A stretch of 64,000 nucleotides of DNA from Xiphydria camelus (taxonomy: Eukaryota; Arthropoda; Insecta; Hymenoptera; Xiphydriidae), in NCBI GenBank assembly GCA_963678675.1, contig OY783197.1, positions 10,357,647 through 10,421,646 of the forward strand, read 5' to 3'. The position numbers and the translations under genes are program-made. Under the pieces are notes generated by a model. The model saw nothing but the letters and a program-made list of their open reading frames with translations. It was not told the origin of the DNA and ran no database searches. Positions 16,801-55,499 of the stretch are shown in pieces; position 1 is the stretch's first letter; every line of letters starts with the position of its first letter.

Positions 16801-19800
16801 GTGTAAGAATTGGTGGGAAATTCTACACTTTCAGGCCATTAGAGATAACTACACCATCAAAAATCGAATGTACTTAGTGTAGATAAAAAGAACAAACGTA
16901 CTAATAACTTTAAACATTTTCACGCGCACTACAGAAGCAGACTCCCAAAATACCTTCTCTCTCACGCTCGATGTCCGTTACTCCTGGGCGTCTTCTAGAC
17001 TCGACTTTAGATTGATCAATTTAAGATAGTACTATCACAGAATCGTTTATGTCAGAATTTGTTAAAATTTGGCATACGTATTATTGAATATATTGCCCAG
17101 ACATCTACGCAATTTAAGTAACACTAATCATCCCTAAGCCGAAATATTTACACTTGAAGTTGATATGATTTATATGTAACTCATGTACAAACCATACACC
17201 GAAGACACATTATTAATTCTACCATCAAAGCGACGTGTAAGAATTGAATAAAAAGGCTGGAAAATGTTTGAGGGAAATGATATGAATATTTTTAGAAAAA
17301 TTCGAGGATGATTTACCATCTACTTTTGAAGATATACAGGGTCTTCAAAAAGTCCCGTTACGGCTGATTATCTCAGCGGGAAATCATTTTAGAGAAAAAT
17401 GTTCGGAAATTGACGGATTCGTGCCAAATTTTTAAAATTTTGAAATCTGATTTCAGATTCGTGATCAGCGACTCAAAAAGCCCACTTATACCAAATTTGG
17501 TACGAATCCGTCAATGTTCGAAAATCTCGCCCGCCATATTGGATCCGCCATCTTGAATTTTTGAAATCTGACTTCAGATTCGTGATCAGCGACCCAAAAA
17601 AAAACCCTATACCGAATTTGGTTTAAGTTGAATAAGCCATTAAGAATTTTGTCCTTCTAATTAGGTTGGCTGATGGTCGAGGAAGTAAACTTAGGCGCCA
17701 CCAAGCTAAACACCCTTATTTACCGCCTGATTTGAAATATATCAATATGGCAGGAGTCAATGCTTACTTTATAAAGTATAGTAGGCATTGCAGGAGTCAG
17801 AAACGAAAATATAACCTTAATTTATGAATCTGTATGTAGTGAAGTGAATTGAAATAAAAAATTTAATATAAAACGATGGCTGTGGAGCCTCCGCAGCCGC
17901 TTCCCACCAGCGATAGCGGCCGACCCACGACGAGCGACAGTGTCGCCACCACCAGATGACGGAAACAGTTCCTTCTCCCGCGCGAAGAGGACTTGCCGCC
18001 TCAGTTGGAGATCCGCTGAATTCCTTTAACTGTTTCACTTGCATAATTTTTTTACCAGTCACATCAGATACAGTCAAATCTGCAACAATGCAGCATTAAT
18101 AATATATTATAACCGTTTTAATTTGCCCGCGGGTGTTTGGCTCGGTGGCGCCATCTGCTTCAGGTTTGCCCAGCCAACCTAATTAGGAGGGCTGGTGGCG
18201 GATTTAGCAAATTTTGGCGCTAGTGAGAACAACACCGTTTCTGTCGTATTTACCGACCGAGTTGTAACTTTTGAATGAAAAGTTAAAAACATAACCTTTC
18301 ATGAACACAATTACCTTGGGTACTTGTCGACTTTTTGGAGTAAATCTCAAAACAACATGGTTTTTCAGTGTGTAGTTCCAAATTGTAAAAATAAATAAAA
18401 AACAAATACTATCATCTGTCCCTTGTCGAAAACCACTACAGCAGACTGAACACTACAGTGGTCAGTAGTGGTTTCTACAATAGTGGTCAGTAGTGGTTTC
18501 TACAATAGTGGTCAGTACCCAGGTAGCAGTGGCACGTCAAACTCACGTCAATATTTCGTCACTCGATTCGTCGAAATAACGTGATTAGTTCGGTTATAAT
18601 GTCGTCATAAATGACGTGATTATGTCTCGTTAAAGAGACGTCATACTTCGACGTCAATATGTCGTCACTATAGTCACGTTTTATTTACGTTCGTTTTTAT
18701 TGATTCGGGTCGTCATATTGACGTTAAAAGTTACGTGATAATGCCATCCTAAAGACGTCACACTTTAAAATCTTATTCTCAGTGAAAAGCTTTGCAATAT
18801 TATTTAAACTCAAGGAAATTTTAAAGAAGAGTGTAAAAAATGTAAGTAAAGCTCTAGTCGCAATATTGTTAAACAGTGAAATATGATCATTAGAATTACA
18901 ATAATAGGCATTGAAAAATATTAATACACAATTGCATATTCGAGAAATAACATCTACATATATTTGAGAATATACATATATATGTACGTAATACATATTG
19001 TATGTTAAAACTTCTAACGTACGGTATGTGTATAACTTCTAACGTACGTGTTATGTATTTCGGTACTATTGAAGGATATTATACATTAATTATTCCTAAG
19101 TATAAATCGAGTGTATTAAAGGCAACGAAACCCAACAATCTTTATCATTCTTTTGAGTAATAGGTAGAACTAGACATTTAGCAGTAATAACGTTGATAGG
19201 CCATGTTTCATAATCATTTGAAATTCCTGTGATGACATAAATATCTAATTCTTTAGAATCTATTGGATTACAATATAATGATGTATGAAATGAAAATCGT
19301 TTCCCGACTATCGTAAAAGAATTGTTGTGATCCATCAAAATATTATGAATTTGCACAACTGATCTAGATTCTTTTATAAGGCAATACGAATCAGCTTTAG
19401 AATATGCATGGACAGAAATCTGGAAATTCTGCAAGCGTAGTTGTTTAAATTGTTTACTGTTTCTGAAAATAATATTTGTAGGAAGAGGGCCACAGTTATA
19501 TTCAAATTTAGGAATTATTGGTCCTTTTAATTTGATATTTTCATTAATAAATGCACTTTCAATTTCACTTATACGGCGGCAAATTTGCTGTAGTGGTCTA
19601 TTAGGTGACTTCACTAAGCGTTTAATTTGTCCTAAAAAGTTTTCGAAAACAAACGCTGAGAAATTATCCAAAGGTCCATACATTTCTGCATCATCGCTGA
19701 GGTGAGATAACATATGAATATTATGAATTAAAAATTGTTTGCCATACAATTTTTCACAATGCTTAACAAATACGTTTAAAACATTGCCAGCAGTCCTGCA

Positions 19801-22800
19801 GCCGAATGTGGAAATGTGTTTGTATGAAATCAGAATAGTAATAGCAGAATGAAAGAGCAAGAAATGTTCATATATCGAGGGATCTACGATATTTCTTAAT
19901 ACAATCGGACCTAGGTATAATACAAAAGTTCTAAATTCTGTTGCTTTCCAGCGTGGCAATTCTTCCAAGCTGCGGGGTTTGCGGTTAAACTCTACAGGAA
20001 TGTAAAATCGCGATGACAATAAGCGTTCTGATAATAGATGAACTGATCTACTGCCTAGGCGGACTTGTAAAGAACCAGAAATCCAAGTATTTAATAACTT
20101 TTTAGCAACACCTAAACATACATTATGCATATAATCTATGGGGAAATTTGACACTAATCCTATTGTTGGAATTTTCGATAAAGGTGAAACGCCTAAGTGG
20201 TGGTCGCTATCTATTTGTAGAGAGAATGAAGTATCAGTTCTCTTAGGCGCATGAATACCTTGCAATGTAACTCTTCCATCGACATACTCGCCAGATTCTG
20301 TACATTTTTCACAAGAAGAGTATCCGCCATGAGATTTTATACATTTTAAGTATGCCCTAGCTGGAGCATCGCAAACGAAGCTATGTAAAGTGACAATATA
20401 TTTTTTGTTATCAAGTTTAATGCCATTTTCCAATAAATGACTAAGATCATTTACAAAATTTTCTAAAAACTCGGTTAGTGGCTTTGGTTTGCCGTTGCCA
20501 CAAAAAATTCCAACAACAAAAGGTTGACATTTTATTTTTTTTATTAACCCCAAAATAGGCCACAACTGCGTTTTCGAACTTGCAAATAAGGGCAAACCAT
20601 CAACATTGAAACTTATTTCTATTACATTACTAGAAATATCCTTCAGATATGGGGAAATTACTTTTTTAATTCCATTCAATAAACCCAAGTGGCAGTATTC
20701 CCCGTTTTCTAGTTTCTTAGTGTCTATATTTAATTTAGTTACTAATAAACTTCGTGAATCAAGCGGTAAATCTGGATGATAGGGCGAAAGAATGTGTAAT
20801 AGATCATTAACTGTCGAGCGAGGTACATTCCTAGTTATTGCCCAAAGTCTCAGCTTCTGAGAGAGATCAGGTGTTTCAATCGTACTGCTACTATCGGAAA
20901 GCATTTCAAAAGTATCATTGTTATAGACTAATTCTGATGTGGTAGCACTGTCATTCAAAAATACGCGATTCATGTGGGTACTATTTTGAAGTAGCGGTGA
21001 AACATTGCTATCACAATCGCTTCTATATACATTTTCGCTTTTATGATTATGTGCAATAGACTCCTTCGTTACTTGAATTCTATTACTTTCCTGTTTTATT
21101 TCATGTAATGCATTTTCGACAGCTTTTGCAATTTTTCTATTCCGCTGACGTTTCCCTGTAGTTGCATTTGTCGTCTTTCTGCTCATTGTTTAAGGATTCT
21201 GTTTCTTCAATTCTTGAATTTTGTACCGTTGAGGTGCGTGTTTAAGCCAAATTTTGATACTGTCGTTGATTTCTTGTTCTGAACAATCAGTTGAGTTTAT
21301 TGCACCTGGAATTAAACAATTTCAAACAAGTTTGTTAAACATATTGCCACTCAAAATACAAGAGTAATCTGTTCCACCACTCTGATGTGTAATGGGAATT
21401 TGTAGCGGCACGCAGCATAACTCATTCTTCAAAGTATGTCAGAATACTTACGAACGACGGCAGTCTTCAACTTTAGTTGTGAAAAAACTTTCTTATCTGC
21501 ACGCTTGCCAAAGAAACTATATTCTTTTGCGAGATTGTCTGTTATGCATCGACGTAATATATTATTTACTTTGGATGATGTGTTTTTACCGCCCAATTGT
21601 GATAGGTATGTAGACTGAAACAAAACGTTATTCCTTTTTTGTATAGGCTTATTTATGTCTGGAAATATGTTGTGATGTGACTTTTGAAATTGAGTTAAAG
21701 TGATAAATTGAATTCTTGAATTGCGGTATACGTATATGTATGCTATTCATATGATTTACGAAGTATGATAATAAAAAGAAGTAATCAAATATAGAGAAGC
21801 TTGAATCAAATTATATGTCAATATGTTTATAAGTAAAGAGACAATTCTTACGAAGCCAATCAAATTTTCTTTTTCTTCTAAATAACGTTCGAATCCATCT
21901 AGATCATCAGTAGTATTAATCGGTAAATTTGATGGTAAATGTGCTGCTTGACATTGGTTTAACGTGGCAGTTGTTGACTGCTTTTCAATCCATCGAAGTA
22001 TTTGGGTATTTTGTTCTTTTATAATAAAAATTTCTCGTAATAACTTCCGTTGAAACACTACAATAAATTAATCAAAGTATTGGTAAAAATATATAGACAT
22101 ACGTCTGTTAATTTTCCTACATAAAATCTGTATATTAGGTTGGCGGAAACGTTTTGTCGTATTGCAATATGTGCAGGCAATTTTACCCGCACATATTGAA
22201 ATATTGGATTTCAAATATAATTACCATAGGCTTACCGATATTATTAACATTATTTGCTGCTAGGTCATCTAAATCATTATTCAAAGTACCGGTAGATTGC
22301 GATACTTTTGAAAGATGAGAGATCGTTGAATGAGATGGTTGAACTGAATAATCATCATCATTTCTTGTATTAATAGAATGTGGATCGGAATTAACTAAAA
22401 AATATTCAGATCATACATTTCTAATTCATACAAAGATATGATACAAAACTGTTAAATAGCTTATTTCATGTAATAAGATTGCTCGTAATTGTTGGATCAT
22501 GTCCATAAAATGATACAAATCAAGTTTTAAATTTCCTATAATTATTTAATGAAGGCTCAATTTGAAAATCTTCTTAAATTTATCGAAATGCCAGCGCGAA
22601 AAATATAATCAGCCATGTTCATTAATAATTCTTCAGGTGTACGTACCATCCTCTCCCAGTTTCAATCTTTTGCACTCAGAACCAGACTTTTTATAGATTT
22701 CTACCTTCGGTGGTCTAGGAAGAAGACTGATATTTTCTTCGTCACTCGAATCAGACAAAATTTTGCGGGTAGCAGAGACTTTTCTCTTCCACGATTGCTT

Positions 22801-25800
22801 TTTTTTTGGTGTTTCAATACCTGACTGTATATCTGAGGTTACTTCGGCTTGTTTTATTTTATACGAAGCTTTTTCAAAATCATCTGTATAGAAATATAAT
22901 GATTATAGTTTTTTAATATCGAATTGAAGAATCTGATGAAATAAAAAAAAATGTTATCGAACGATATCTCGTGCATTCGTTCAGCGCTCAACCATATCAC
23001 AAAGAAAAGATAATGAGGAGCTCCAAAAATTCGGCTTTACGTTGTTATCCCCCTTTTGTTAAGAAGGAATAAGCATATGTGTGTACTTACCGCACTCAAA
23101 AAAACGACGGCAAATACCATACACTGTCCAGGTCTCCTCATCTGGATTTTCCCCACGTTTTAATAATTTATTGTATTCATTTTGCGTCTTGCATGGTGGC
23201 CACAAGACTTCTTTTTTTCGTGGCGTTAACCAGCGGCTATTTACTACAGCTATGCCGCCTGCACATTCCTCGGAAGCAGAAAACTCGACGCCTACATATG
23301 TCATTATACGCGACGTCTTATACAGTCACTCTTTTTTCGCTCGCTCTCACTTTTATTTTCCTGTCACTTTGCTGCTTTAAGAAATCGTATATGCACTGCA
23401 CTGAAAATGCCACGAATGTTCGAATATCGTTTGAACTGTACGGGACTACCGACGTGACTGAACCGAAATTTTCAAACTCAAAGAAATAAACCGTTTCTGC
23501 CGTGGTGACGGTACGTTAGTATAGGGAAAGACCCACCTCGGTCTACGGCATTTGGTCAGCACATGGAACTCATTAAACGCGGATACCAAGGAAAGTGGCA
23601 GGTAACACGGGTACCCGCAATGCCGTGATTTTCTATTCCGTTGGAGTTCTTGTAAAAAGTATCCCGCAGAGGTATCAAGGGAAAATCCCGTTTATTTCCG
23701 TTATTTGTAATTTTATGAAAATATATTTCAAATAAAATTTGTTTGGTATTGAAAGATACATATGGTAGATGCAACAGATTTTCAATGACACGCATTATTT
23801 ACGAGATATGAAGGTTACTTTCATCTTTTTAAGTGGAATTCGGTATTTTAATTCCTACAAAAGTAGTAGAGCTCGTCAAGATGAACAAAAAAAGGTAAAA
23901 GGTGAAATGTCCATTCGCTGAACCGTTTGTGAGATATTTCCGCTCAAAGTACAAGAGTAAATTTCGCTGGGCGCTGGAAACTTAGTCGCACGCAGCGCAA
24001 TTTACTCTTGTACTTTGAACGAAAATATCTCACAAACTTTTCAACTGATGGGTATTTCATCTTATACATTTCTTACAGTTACACACCTGATTATGCGTAG
24101 GGAAATAATAAATTATGTGACTGTTTCGTCAACAAATTACGTGAAAAAAACGTCATTTCAATGACGTCATAATATGATCTTCAAATAACACGTGATTAAA
24201 ACGTCGAATTTAAGGCATATGACGTCGTCGACGAACAATCACCTTCAAGCGACGTGAATATGACGTGTCACTGCTACCTGGGTAGTGGTATACAGTAGGT
24301 TCGTTCCAACAAGCATTTTAGGACAGTTCTAGAACCGTCCTGGAACTAGTTAAGAATTATTTAATGCGCATGCGCCAGTCAGATGCGTTCTAGAACTGAA
24401 TTCATGGGATGTGTTTTTTCATTTTTTCTCGAAACTATCTTTATGCATTTGTACTGTTCTTGGACTCACCGATTCAAATAGAGCGCGTCTCGCGCCTTAC
24501 TACGCGTGGGCTAGAAAATCGTCCCAACTCAGAACTAGGGACTGGAATTACCGTTCTAGAACCGTTCTGTTACAGTTCGCAGTTTAGTTGGAACGCTCTT
24601 TGGAATCGTTCCAGAACCAGTTCTGTGTTTGTTGGAACGGCTAAGTCAGACTGCGCACACTCCGCCGAGTTCAAAACCAGTTCTCATGTTAATTGGAACG
24701 AACCTAGTGGTGAATAGTGGTCAGTAGTGGTATACGGTGGTGAATAGTGGCATGCAGTGGTACGTAGTGGTAAGAAGTGCTAAGTAGTGCACATGTAATG
24801 GTTATACTTTTTTTTTTTATTGAATCATATAAAAAGGGTACAAAATTTAAATTATACGACGGATGTATCACTTCTGCTCCCGAAAACTCTGCAATCACGC
24901 GAATTGAAGAAAGGTATAATACCTACCTAGATAAATTTAAATGTTACTTATAGAAGACAATGCAATGGTAGATGACTTCTTTGGTTGATATTATTGGATA
25001 CCGTTGAGGTTCTCGCGATTGTAGACCCGTGTGCTTAAATTTTAAATTTAAACTTGCATTTTCTAGTAAAAGAGCGAAGGGAGAACAAAATTTTCCCGAC
25101 GTTTCTATGAGCTTCTATCCTCCTATTAAAAAAGAACTATAATCTAAAATGTGTCGCGCGAAATTACCTAGCAGGGAAAGACTCACTTATAAAAAAAGAA
25201 GAGAGATCTATTAATTTTGATTCTCCAGAGCTTTGACTCAGATAAAATTATAATCATGATTCAATCTCACGCGTGGAAAGCAAGGCTACAATAGCCGTTC
25301 CTCGGAGCACCGTCCGACGCGAATGCTGCGACCCAGAGAAATTGAGCATCATCGAGTTCTTAATCTAGAACGAATCATCGAGCGTCAACGTCGCGGTGGA
25401 ATTTCTACTGTCCGGCGATTGCATTGCGATATATCGTTTGCGTAAGATCTCTTGAAGGTCGTTGCAAGGGCTACTTTCGCGTTTGGCTCGCAAAGGTCTC
25501 TCACCCGGCGATCTGAAAAACACGTTTAAAAGCCCACTGTGAACAAAATCAATCCTTCGCAGCCACGACATTCTGACAATGGGAAACTCGTCTTTGTTCC
25601 TGGCGAATTAAAAGTTTACCGCGATAAAATTGTTTAATCATACCTTGCGACGAGTTTCAATATGACTTTGTCGATGTCTTTCAGTATATCACCCATTAAT
25701 TTCTGGGAGATCAGTGGCGGTTTATGCCGTTCGACGAACTTGTAGTCTTGTAAACTAGCTCTCCTCGCGATGTGAGGAGTCGTCGGAGGTGGCAGAGGTG

Positions 25801-42420: not shown

Positions 42421-43705
42421 TAGGTAGATAGCGAATATTAATTAGAAATTGTCAAATTACAGACGAATCAATTAGAAATCATTTGGGGAATCGAACCCTA
42501 TTGTTAATTTCATTTGGGAAATAATACTTAGGTAATTAATAATTATAATTATCGTTCCACAGTGAAAACTGTTTTATCAATATATAATAAATACGTTGAC
42601 GGTTACAGACCGTTAGATACCGACCTGCGACTCGGATTCTGTCGCTGGTGACTTTTTTAAACGTTACTTTTAAATGTACTAACCAATGATGAGGGCATGA
42701 GTATTAATTGTTCATTGGCTAGTATGTTTAAAAATGATACTTTAGAAAGTCACCAGCGACAGAATCCGAGTCGCAGTGGTATTTTGCTCTATTTTGAAGG
42801 TCACCCTGCTCTAATTAAAAACCCAAGTAATTCAATTTATTTATTAGTAAATAATGTGGGTCATAAATTGATTACCACTGCGACTCGGATTCTGTCGCTG
42901 GTGACTTTCTAAAGTATCATTTTTAAACATACTAGCCAATGAACAATTAATACTCATGCCCTCATCATTGGTTAGTACATTTAGGTACCCAGATAGCAAA
43001 GTGGCGCCACCGTGACTGCACACTGCTTTCACGCGGTGTATTCGAGTGCATGCACTGGGGTGTCCATCTGTCTGTGCACCGTGAAGCCACGCTGCAGTCA
43101 CGCAGTGTGAGCACCGAGTGGAAGCACTGTGGCATAACAGGGTGACTCCACAGTGCTTGTACTGTGAGATGATGGTGTAGACCCAGTGGCTTCGCTGTGA
43201 AGTTATCATATGGACTACAGGGATGTATTCTAATAAAATATTTATATTAAAAAACAACATATCTTTTACTATTCCATTTATTAAATGAACATATTGTAGC
43301 TGGAGATCTTAATATTAACATATCAAAATGTATTATCCGTCAATTCCCGGGAAAATTTATAATTAATTAAAAACTATCGAAGTTTTGGCCCTAAGCCACT
43401 TTATAGTATAGTCTTATTAGATATTCGCGAAACAATTTATTAGTGTCAGGATAAAACCGGTACCAATCGATAGGAAAAAATCTCCTGAATGACATATAGA
43501 AATGGGTAATCTTCAAATTGACGAGAAATAATGTAATTAATTAAAAACTACCTGTCAAAATCACATGCCAACAAATCGCGAAGCTATATTTTTTCTGTAA
43601 CCAATTTCATAAATAAAAATATCCCAATGTACAGGAGAAAATTCTTTACAAATTTCAAGTCGGAACTTATAGTCTACGATGCACCGTTTTTGTGTAATAA
43701 ATTAT

Positions 43706-53568: not shown

Positions 53569-54547
53569 CCCAGGTAGCACATCAATGTCGAAATGACGTT
53601 TTTTGAAGGTCAGTTCTTACGTCAGATGACGAAAAATATGACGTTATTTTAACGTCGCAAAGACGGCTTAATTGCACATCCACACGACGTCAGAAAAATC
53701 ACGTCATAATGATGTTCTACCGGACGTTGTGATGACGTAAAAAATAACGGTTCTAAAAGGTTGGGTCTGTCGTATATCTTTTCATCGTGAGCGGTCACCC
53801 ATCCAACTAGTGTCCGCACTTTTCGCTGCTTAACTTCGTTGATCGGTCGGTATCCTCGAGTCCTCATCTGCTACACGCTCTTGTGGTTAAGAATATTATT
53901 ACTATTGGTGTTCATATGAAGTTTGATGAATAAATGTATATTGCTTTTCCTATCAATAAGAAAGAGCTTGAATAAATAAGATTTTATAGTTGTATTATTC
54001 TTTTCTCAACATTTTTCTAAATTTATGATTGTATCTTTTGATAAATATTCTTGCATAGACGCAAATTAATATTAATATAAATTTGCGTTTATGCAAGATA
54101 TAAATAATAAATAAATATAAATAAATAAATAATTATATGAATATTTATTCATCCTACATTAATTGATTGTCTTTCATTTACTTTAATAATATGTGCTTTT
54201 TAATAAACAGTATAGTTTATAACTTGCTCAACATACTCTGGAGACTCAAAATGAAATAATTTATTGATTTAATAATTGAACAAATTACAATTTTTGTCCA
54301 TTTATTCACAAATAAATTTTCAAGTCCCTTTACCTATATGCAGGAGATCGAAATTTGTCTAAGTCTCGTTCGTCATTAAAAATGACGGAAAAGTTCCGTC
54401 AAAAAGACGTTGAATTTTGACGTCCAAGGTACGTCGTAAATATGACGTCACTGTGACGTTAATATTACGACAACTGACGTCTGAAACCCTATACTGACCA
54501 AAAAATGACGTTTGAGACGTTATTCTAACGTTAGTGTGCTACCTGGG
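53569..54547. mobile_element. non-autonomous CCCAGGTAGCA element, CA duplication
   Basis: 979 bp with ends CCCAGGTAGCACA and TGTGCTACCTGGG. CA is at 53567-53568 and 54548-54549. Subterminal ACGTCA/TGACGT motifs are plentiful (53590-53740, 54380-54540), as in 18518-24282. No gene. The left arm of the host palindrome (about 51515-51560) holds the same flanks joined with a single CA, which is the empty site. Confidence 0.85.
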
Positions 54548-55499
54548 CACTTACCCTACTCAAAAATCTTGAGAACTGCCTGGTCACTGTAATCTTCCAC
54601 GTCGGTTCACTTGTCTCTACAACTCGTTAATTATTTTACATTTAACCTAAGACTTATCACCCTTCCTTCATTACTTCGATTTATCTGTATTTTTACTTTT
54701 TATTAATAAGTGCGTCCGAGGATCGAAATAAACGCGAAGGAAATTGTTTCGCGAAAATGGAAATATTTTATTAACTTTGAAAATCACGTTTTATTTCCAA
54801 AAAATACAATTGCTCCGAAAATTCCACTTTGTAAACAAACGTATGTGTCAACCGCCATACTTTCTCGTCTGCTAGGTGCCTACGCCTTAGGGAACTTCTC
54901 TCGCGACGATTGCCGTCTGCTGACGATAGCAGAGCCAATCGTTCGGCGTGCTTGCGTCTCCGACCAATAGCGTACAACCTAGAGTCTACAAATCGCTACG
55001 TACCATATCGTCCTATGGCCACAACATAGCCTAACACCCGGTATTTGGTTGCTCTATCACATAATTAACATTAATATTACCATCATCGTCCATCATTTCT
55101 GCTAGATAGGATATTGTTTGAGAAAGTTGGTAAGAGCCGGTAAAAAAGATCTTCAATTCCTGTTCTGTGATTTCTGGGAAATCCTCTAAATCAGCCGATT
55201 TTAACAACTTGAAGGTCTTTTTCCTCCTACTCCATTTTGCCTCCATCACTTCGATAGCTAACGTGTTTTCAACAGCTTTTCTAGAGTTTATCTGATGTAC
55301 AATTTCTCGAAATAAACCTTTATCTGAATTCAATCGGCGATCAGAGTTTCACAAATTCATAATTTCGAGGTTAGACGCTTCGATCTCCCGAATTGACACC
55401 AACTCTAACTACCGACTCGACTTCTACCGGTATTAAATGACTCAAGTACCGACTAAGCCTCCCCGAAGGTAACTTCAAACTGGCCAATATAGAGTGGGA

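Follow-up and report, generated by a model that had tools for sequence, protein, structure and literature searches.

A recently multiplied two-gene transposon of Xiphydria camelus carrying a DUF4806 gene next to a predicted RAG1/Transib-like transposase

The insect Xiphydria camelus carries, on contig OY783197.1 of assembly GCA_963678675.1, a complete transposon in which two intact and co-oriented genes stand in tandem between matched ends. The coordinates given here are those of the window, by which we mean the whole 64,000-nucleotide (nt) stretch that was analysed, and the features of the locus are collected in Table 1. The first gene codes for a DUF4806 protein of 364 amino acids (aa); all introns between its six exons are GT-AG and their phases are consistent. 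The second is a single open transposase frame. A previous reading of this DNA, made from the letters and their open reading frames (ORFs) and called the sequence-only reading below, had described a six-exon DUF4806 gene with agreeing phases and an undamaged transposase of 696 codons, and we found both as described.

The matched ends, also pointed out before, are perfect over 14 bp and stay alike beyond the terminal inverted repeats (TIRs), since 29 of the 32 outermost positions agree. With up to three mismatches allowed, TACCCAGGTAGCAGTG matches the window three times, twice exactly, against 0.17 matches expected. A weak TIR-like match (CCCAGATAGC) lies at 42988 with TA just before it. The insertion target is a host tandem repeat with a unit of 25 bp, and the flanks of the transposon, joined with a single TA, match the adjacent unit at 22 of 25 positions, so that the empty site and the target site duplication (TSD) can both be read inside the window. 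Both ends and a perfect 2-bp duplication were present in all 39 further copies fetched from the genome, one of which is also compatible with 3 bp. The TA duplication proposed by the sequence-only reading does flank the window copy, but it does not extend to the family as a fixed sequence: the duplications of the other copies are varied (22 TA, 4 AA, 4 GA, 3 TG, 2 CA, 2 CT, 1 AC, and 1 AT), and their excess of TA arises because the query used to rank the copies itself carried TA.

Table 1. Features of the transposon and its target site in the window
Feature	Position	Strand	Basis or remark
Complete transposon	18518..24282	no strand	TIRs, TSD, exact ends elsewhere in the genome; 5,765 bp
Left TIR, CCCAGGTAGCAGTG	18518..18531	+	14 bp, perfect
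Right TIR, CCCAGGTAGCAGTG, reverse complement of left	24269..24282	-	14 bp, perfect
TSD, left copy (TA)	18516..18517	.	2-bp duplications also in 39/39 other copies
TSD, right copy (TA)	24283..24284	.	pairs with left TA
Host 25-bp tandem repeat, insertion target	18452..18517	+	adjacent unit is the empty site
Left subterminal array, 7 ACGTCA, both orientations	18534..18760	.	motif count
Right subterminal array, 5 ACGTCA	24150..24266	.	motif count
DUF4806 exon 1, N-terminal domain, ATG at 23304	23091..23304	-	gene model
DUF4806 exon 2	22647..22883	-	gene model
DUF4806 exon 3	22236..22394	-	gene model
DUF4806 exon 4, helix, then start of BEN-type domain	21852..22057	-	gene model, profile, structure model
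DUF4806 exon 5, core of BEN-type domain	21452..21614	-	gene model, profile
DUF4806 exon 6, conserved WLKHAPQR motif, stop TAA 21192-21190	21190..21305	-	gene model
Spacer (ACA), 3 nt, DUF4806 stop to transposase ATG, same frame	21187..21189	-	identical in 40/40 copies
Transposase ORF, 696 aa, intronless	19096..21186	-	single open frame; RAG1/Transib-like core predicted
D196, proposed catalytic residue	20599..20601	-	invariant 45/45
D273, proposed catalytic residue	20368..20370	-	invariant 45/45
E515, proposed catalytic residue	19642..19644	-	invariant 45/45
Predicted BAH-like fold, transposase residues 556-687	19126..19521	-	structure model

To count the copies, the 357-Mb assembly (38 contigs) was searched with both ends. 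Exact matches to the outermost 32 bp number 79 for the left end and 71 for the right end, with 0 matches for the reversed-pattern control in each case. All 71 exact right ends pair with a left end, spanning 5,045-5,793 bp (5,765-5,769 bp in 67 of them), which leaves 8 left ends without an exact partner on the right. No short deletion derivative was found among the 71 exact-end pairs, a search to which copies with mutated ends are invisible. By position matching, the transposase was shown to follow 70 of the 79 left ends, 64 through a protein search and 6 through fetched copies. The protein searches of the genome were filled by this one family (best 64 of 662 and best 65 of 671 candidates), and the 64 loci scored in the first of these are all 100% identical over 696 aa and free of stops.

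Forty copies were read, namely, the window copy and the 39 best matches to a 285-bp query from the left end, a TA-carrying query that biases the fetched copies to intact left ends and TA targets. Ten of the 39 do not differ from the window copy anywhere in its 5,765 bp. All 40 copies have an undamaged transposase frame, and 38 have undamaged DUF4806 exons and splice sites. In the remaining two the gene is present in damaged form, with a 10-bp insertion in exon 1 (copy L019) or a loss of 305 bp that removes most of intron 2 including the acceptor, together with 57 bp of exon 3 (copy L024). The sequence-only reading had made its claim depend on other full-length copies also having the DUF4806 gene, and no copy among the 40 is without it. 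Compared with their majority sequence, the 40 copies differ at single bases 28 times in all (around 0.012% per site), through 10 distinct substitutions; the substitution at 22125 is common to 17 copies. The mutation rate of insects is about 3e-9 per site per generation. At that rate the divergence of the copies corresponds to an age of at most some tens of thousands of generations. The transposon has multiplied very recently, and it is probably active at present. Two full-length copies (L017 and L016, G000 C22:14195347 and 14207890) lie 12.5 kb apart in opposite orientation, with right ends about 1 kb from each other, an arrangement that a local hop could have produced.

The transposase was aligned with 44 of the 120 listed relatives, giving 45 sequences. 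The three proposed catalytic residues are accompanied, between the second D and the E, by a C(2)C motif (C292-x2-C295) that is invariant in 45 of 45 sequences and by an H(3)H motif (H491-x3-H495) of which both columns are invariant. A CMC-like transposase had been proposed before, and all three hallmarks (DDE, C(2)C, and H(3)H) are indeed there. The first methionine does not vary in the alignment, and R13 and R17 hardly do, which supports the ATG at 21186 as the real start. The structure model of the protein superposes on the RAG1 and Transib cores. From this model and from conservation, we infer that the protein, 696 aa long, is a transposase of the DDE kind built on a core of RAG1/Transib type. 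Its C-terminus is predicted to fold like a BAH domain; for BAH in this part of the protein, no match was obtained among Pfam or PDB profiles at E values up to 10. A search of the BFVD viral structures gave no match at E ≤ 0.001, and no relatives were confirmed among viral contigs and prokaryote genomes, as expected of an insect element.

The DUF4806 protein scored 27.6 bits against PF16064 (cut-off 25), and the same profile matched 22 of the 24 aligned relatives at E 0.01 (24 of the 28 listed relatives were aligned). The sequence-only reading had called DUF4806 a domain of unknown function. The family is already partly characterized, as DUF4806 is published as a subtype of the BEN DNA-binding domain (Pan et al. 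2023, as cited in PMC11075544). Similar to that subtype, the window protein belongs to PF16064, and the BEN fold is reproduced in the structure model of one of its relatives. The protein would consist of an N-terminal domain, a helix that may form a coil, and a predicted DNA-binding domain of BEN type. Upstream of the gene, a palindrome at 23888-24074 has 87-nt arms that are 82% complementary around a gap of 13 nt, and pieces similar to it lie in intron 5 (21341-21429). It is possibly a nested small element or a promoter hairpin.

Plant CACTA elements have CACTA termini and 3-bp duplications. The window element differs in both, as was noted before, having CCCAGG ends and only 1 copy in 39 that fits 3 bp. 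Elements of the CMCT clade are recognized by a DDE/D triad, C(2)C and H(3-4)H motifs, a TSD of 2-5 bp, and termini that are mostly CA..TG (PMC12730594). The triad, C(2)C, H(3)H, and a 2-bp TSD were all found here; the termini are CCC..GGG rather than CA..TG, and the source allows exceptions on this point. The animal TRC group has ends of this kind. TRC ends start with CCC in Schistosoma, Tribolium, and Aedes, with 2-bp direct repeats given for Tribolium and Aedes, and the Tribolium end begins CCCTAGTAGCA, close to the CCCAGGTAGCA of the window element (PMC1636069). In the window element, too, the inverted repeats start with CCC and are flanked by 2-bp repeats (39 of 39 copies). TRC elements are 4.5-9.2 kb long, have a transposase of CACTA type and, in the case of SmTRC1, make more than one product; apart from Transposase_21, their parts are not detectably conserved (PMC1636069). 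SmTRC1 obtains its products by alternative splicing, whereas the window element has tandem ORFs with the accessory gene first, and no DUF4806 or BEN gene is named for TRC elements in the available text of PMC1636069. The Hydra element Spongebob_HMa/EnSpm-4N1_HM also has ends that begin with CCC and a 2-bp TSD and is assigned to TRC; it differs in that its transposase was not recoverable, and DUF4806 goes unmentioned in the text available (PMC4298943). Ends that start with CCC beside a 2-bp duplication were thus known before, from the TRC elements of DeMarco et al. 2006 (PMC1636069) and from Hydra EnSpm-4N1, and the termini of the window element are not supported as a novelty.

The CCC ends and the duplication of 2 bp, where CACTA and 3 bp might be looked for, could also mean that the element is a Mirage, a Chapaev, or a separate superfamily outside the CACTA/EnSpm (TRC) branch, and the window protein itself has no match to Transposase_21 (tnp2, PF02992). 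Transposase_21 is matched, however, by 8 of the 45 aligned sequences at E 0.01 (best E 2.5e-6) and DUF4218 by 37 of the 45, with the window protein at 24.5 bits, under the DUF4218 cut-off of 27, and the ends and repeats in question are themselves TRC features (PMC1636069). On the evidence of profiles and ends, a place outside that branch is very improbable. We assign the element, with moderate confidence, to the animal TRC group in the CACTA/EnSpm branch of the CMCT clade, as an autonomous cut-and-paste transposon that has a TnpA-like DUF4806 partner.

The dense ACGTCA motifs that had been reported near the ends are there: the leftmost 300 bp of the element contain 7 and its rightmost 180 bp contain 5, whereas the window has 0.23 per kb away from its two elements. 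The enrichment is local, for the window taken as a whole has 38 motifs where 30.9 are expected, a count reached in 17 of 100 shuffles and so no excess over chance. The second element, of 981 bp at 53569-54549, has the ends CCCAGGTAGCA and a CA duplication, and no gene was seen in it. It contains 12 ACGTCA within its outer 400 bp and none inside, and its left 201 bp recur at least 40 times elsewhere in the genome, with identities of up to 98% (best 40 of 708 candidates). It is an older, probably non-autonomous relative. Ends and arrays thus seem to stay together even where genes are absent, which fits a role of the arrays as binding sites.

Maize En/Spm has subterminal motif arrays at both of its ends, as the window element does, and makes two proteins, TnpA and TnpD. 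TnpA is not known to be a BEN protein. The two elements differ in gene order, the accessory gene of the window element being upstream of the transposase. Both have tandem ORFs, from which En/Spm makes its proteins as one unit (PMC1636069). By analogy, the DUF4806 protein would do the job of TnpA, binding to the ACGTCA arrays near either end so that the two ends are brought together for the transposase, and it would perhaps regulate the promoter of the element. Cleavage by the transposase would fall at the CCC of each end, and insertion would take place with a stagger of 2 bp, as the duplications show for the stagger and the fold suggests for the chemistry; the BAH-like domain of the transposase may contact chromatin. 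With only 3 nt between the stop of DUF4806 and the ATG of the transposase, we propose that both proteins come from a single transcription unit, the second product being made by reinitiation or alternative splicing. The junction reads TAA ACA ATG (21184-21192), with one codon between stop and ATG, and would suit reinitiation or read-through. The whole explanation, an autonomous TRC transposon with a DDE transposase and a TnpA-like end-binding DUF4806 partner, appears to us somewhat more probable than otherwise.

The DUF4806 protein could instead work outside the cutting complex, as a regulator or anti-silencing factor that acts on the promoter or chromatin of the element and aids its expression. 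BEN domains are mostly found in chromatin and transcription factors (PMC11075544), and the right array could be promoter-proximal, with the DUF4806 start codon some 1 kb from the right end. The arrays, however, lie at both ends and not on the promoter side alone, and they also flank the 53569-54549 relative, where no gene was seen. We consider such a regulator unlikely.

The two genes were found together in five other insect species, on several branches of the transposase tree. The protein set contained 148 proteins (120 listed of 912 transposase relatives, and 28 DUF4806 relatives). Seven gene models among the matches listed hold both parts, with the DUF4806 part first: five from Rhamnusium bicolor, including two near-duplicate pairs, one from Brassicogethes aeneus, and one from the ant Cyphomyrmex costatus that keeps the N-terminal part of the DUF4806 protein only. 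The two proteins have consecutive tags in Aquatica leii (RN001_002793/002794) and Pyrocoelia pectoralis (RI129_012829/012830). In Aquatica this is 1 case among 6 tagged DUF4806 relatives and 3 listed tagged transposases, and in Pyrocoelia 1 case among 3 such relatives and 1 such transposase. Chance would give about 0.003 and 0.0005 such cases if each genome is assumed to have 13,000 genes. On a tree of 122 transposases, which includes 10 paired rows with the window and has no Mirage or Chapaev references, the paired label changes 8 times, at least 7 of these being forced by well-supported branches; 11 of 500 shuffles were as low (mean 9.8). The label is slightly clustered, near-copies included. 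The pairing thus does not go back to a single recent event. The earlier proposals of a two-gene transposon and of insect DUF4806 as, at least in part, a transposon gene are both supported. When the DUF4806 part of P0014 was used to look for long fused models, P0014 itself and P0147 were the only hits; the other Rhamnusium models escaped this search, which therefore says little. P0147 (Aquatica leii RN001_001495) has a THAP4-like heme-binding domain joined to a DUF4806 protein and is either an annotation fusion or a host capture.

A captured host gene of BEN type, carried as a passenger without a role, would explain other observations. Related elements carry passengers, such as the TET/JBP genes of fungal EnSpm and Plavaka elements (PMC12730594), and damage was seen in DUF4806 in 2 of 40 copies and in the transposase frame in none. 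DUF4806 proteins also occur with no such transposase in view, in zebrafish and for most of the proteins listed (120 of 912 transposases being listed). The distances of the two proteins were uncorrelated in four selections of 6-8 pairs (r -0.11 to 0.18, exact p 0.31-0.61), so that joint inheritance is unsupported; from each near-duplicate Rhamnusium pair a single model was used here, P0089 and P0114 being left out, and some pairs were incomplete, with the N-terminal part only for Cyphomyrmex and a short transposase part for Brassicogethes. Against a passenger stand the recurrence of the pairing in several insect lineages, with DUF4806 first in the fused models, and the undamaged gene in 38 of the 40 copies. 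Only 1 of the 10 distinct substitutions is coding, against 55% of the element (p 0.004), a scarcity that is suggestive only, with few events and very young copies. We regard a passenger as quite improbable.

The lone DUF4806 genes and the uncorrelated distances weigh against the end-binding explanation as well, and so do three further points. The BEN model is that of a beetle relative (P0121), 39% identical to the window protein, and its best BEN E value in Foldseek was 0.059. BAH and BEN were both assigned from the fold, and sequence profiles matched neither among solved structures. Finally, the protein that binds the ACGTCA arrays might be the transposase itself or a bZIP factor of the host.

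The combination of a DUF4806/BEN gene with the transposase of an element that has CCC ends and 2-bp TSDs is what appears to be new here, the kind of element being known. No pairing of BEN/DUF4806 with a TRC-type transposase was found in the literature searched, which did not take in subscription papers, Repbase, or Dfam; Repbase may hold such families. A parallel is offered by RAG1-RAG2/Transib (PMC4411706), likewise a two-gene element, on whose transposase core the window model superposes and which has a chromatin-reader-type domain (PHD in RAG2, BAH-like here). It differs from the window element, where the predicted reader is part of the transposase, a BEN protein takes the place of the kelch-PHD partner, the genes are in tandem and not head to head, and the TSD is 2 bp.

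DUF4806 has been reported as expanded or enriched, without an explanation, in genome papers on Trypodendron and Hydra, and the counts tabulated are 69 and 54 for two Hydra species and 0-6 for five others (PMC7642931), a pattern expected if DUF4806 is largely a transposon gene. We suggest, tentatively and as less than an even prospect, that many of the numerous lineage-specific DUF4806 genes of insects, and perhaps those of Hydra, are accessory genes of TRC/CACTA elements, coding for a BEN-type, TnpA-like end-binding protein that would act with a RAG1-fold transposase bearing its own BAH-type chromatin reader. This would offer a likely job for the DUF4806 family, and transposons would then feed the expansions of the BEN family, in parallel to RAG1-RAG2. 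The window element is of animal CACTA type, has dozens of almost identical copies, and looks as if it had been active recently or still were, so that cut-and-paste by this group could be assayed directly. Its RAG1-like core, BAH-like reader, and BEN partner would be an independent parallel to the RAG1-RAG2 pair.

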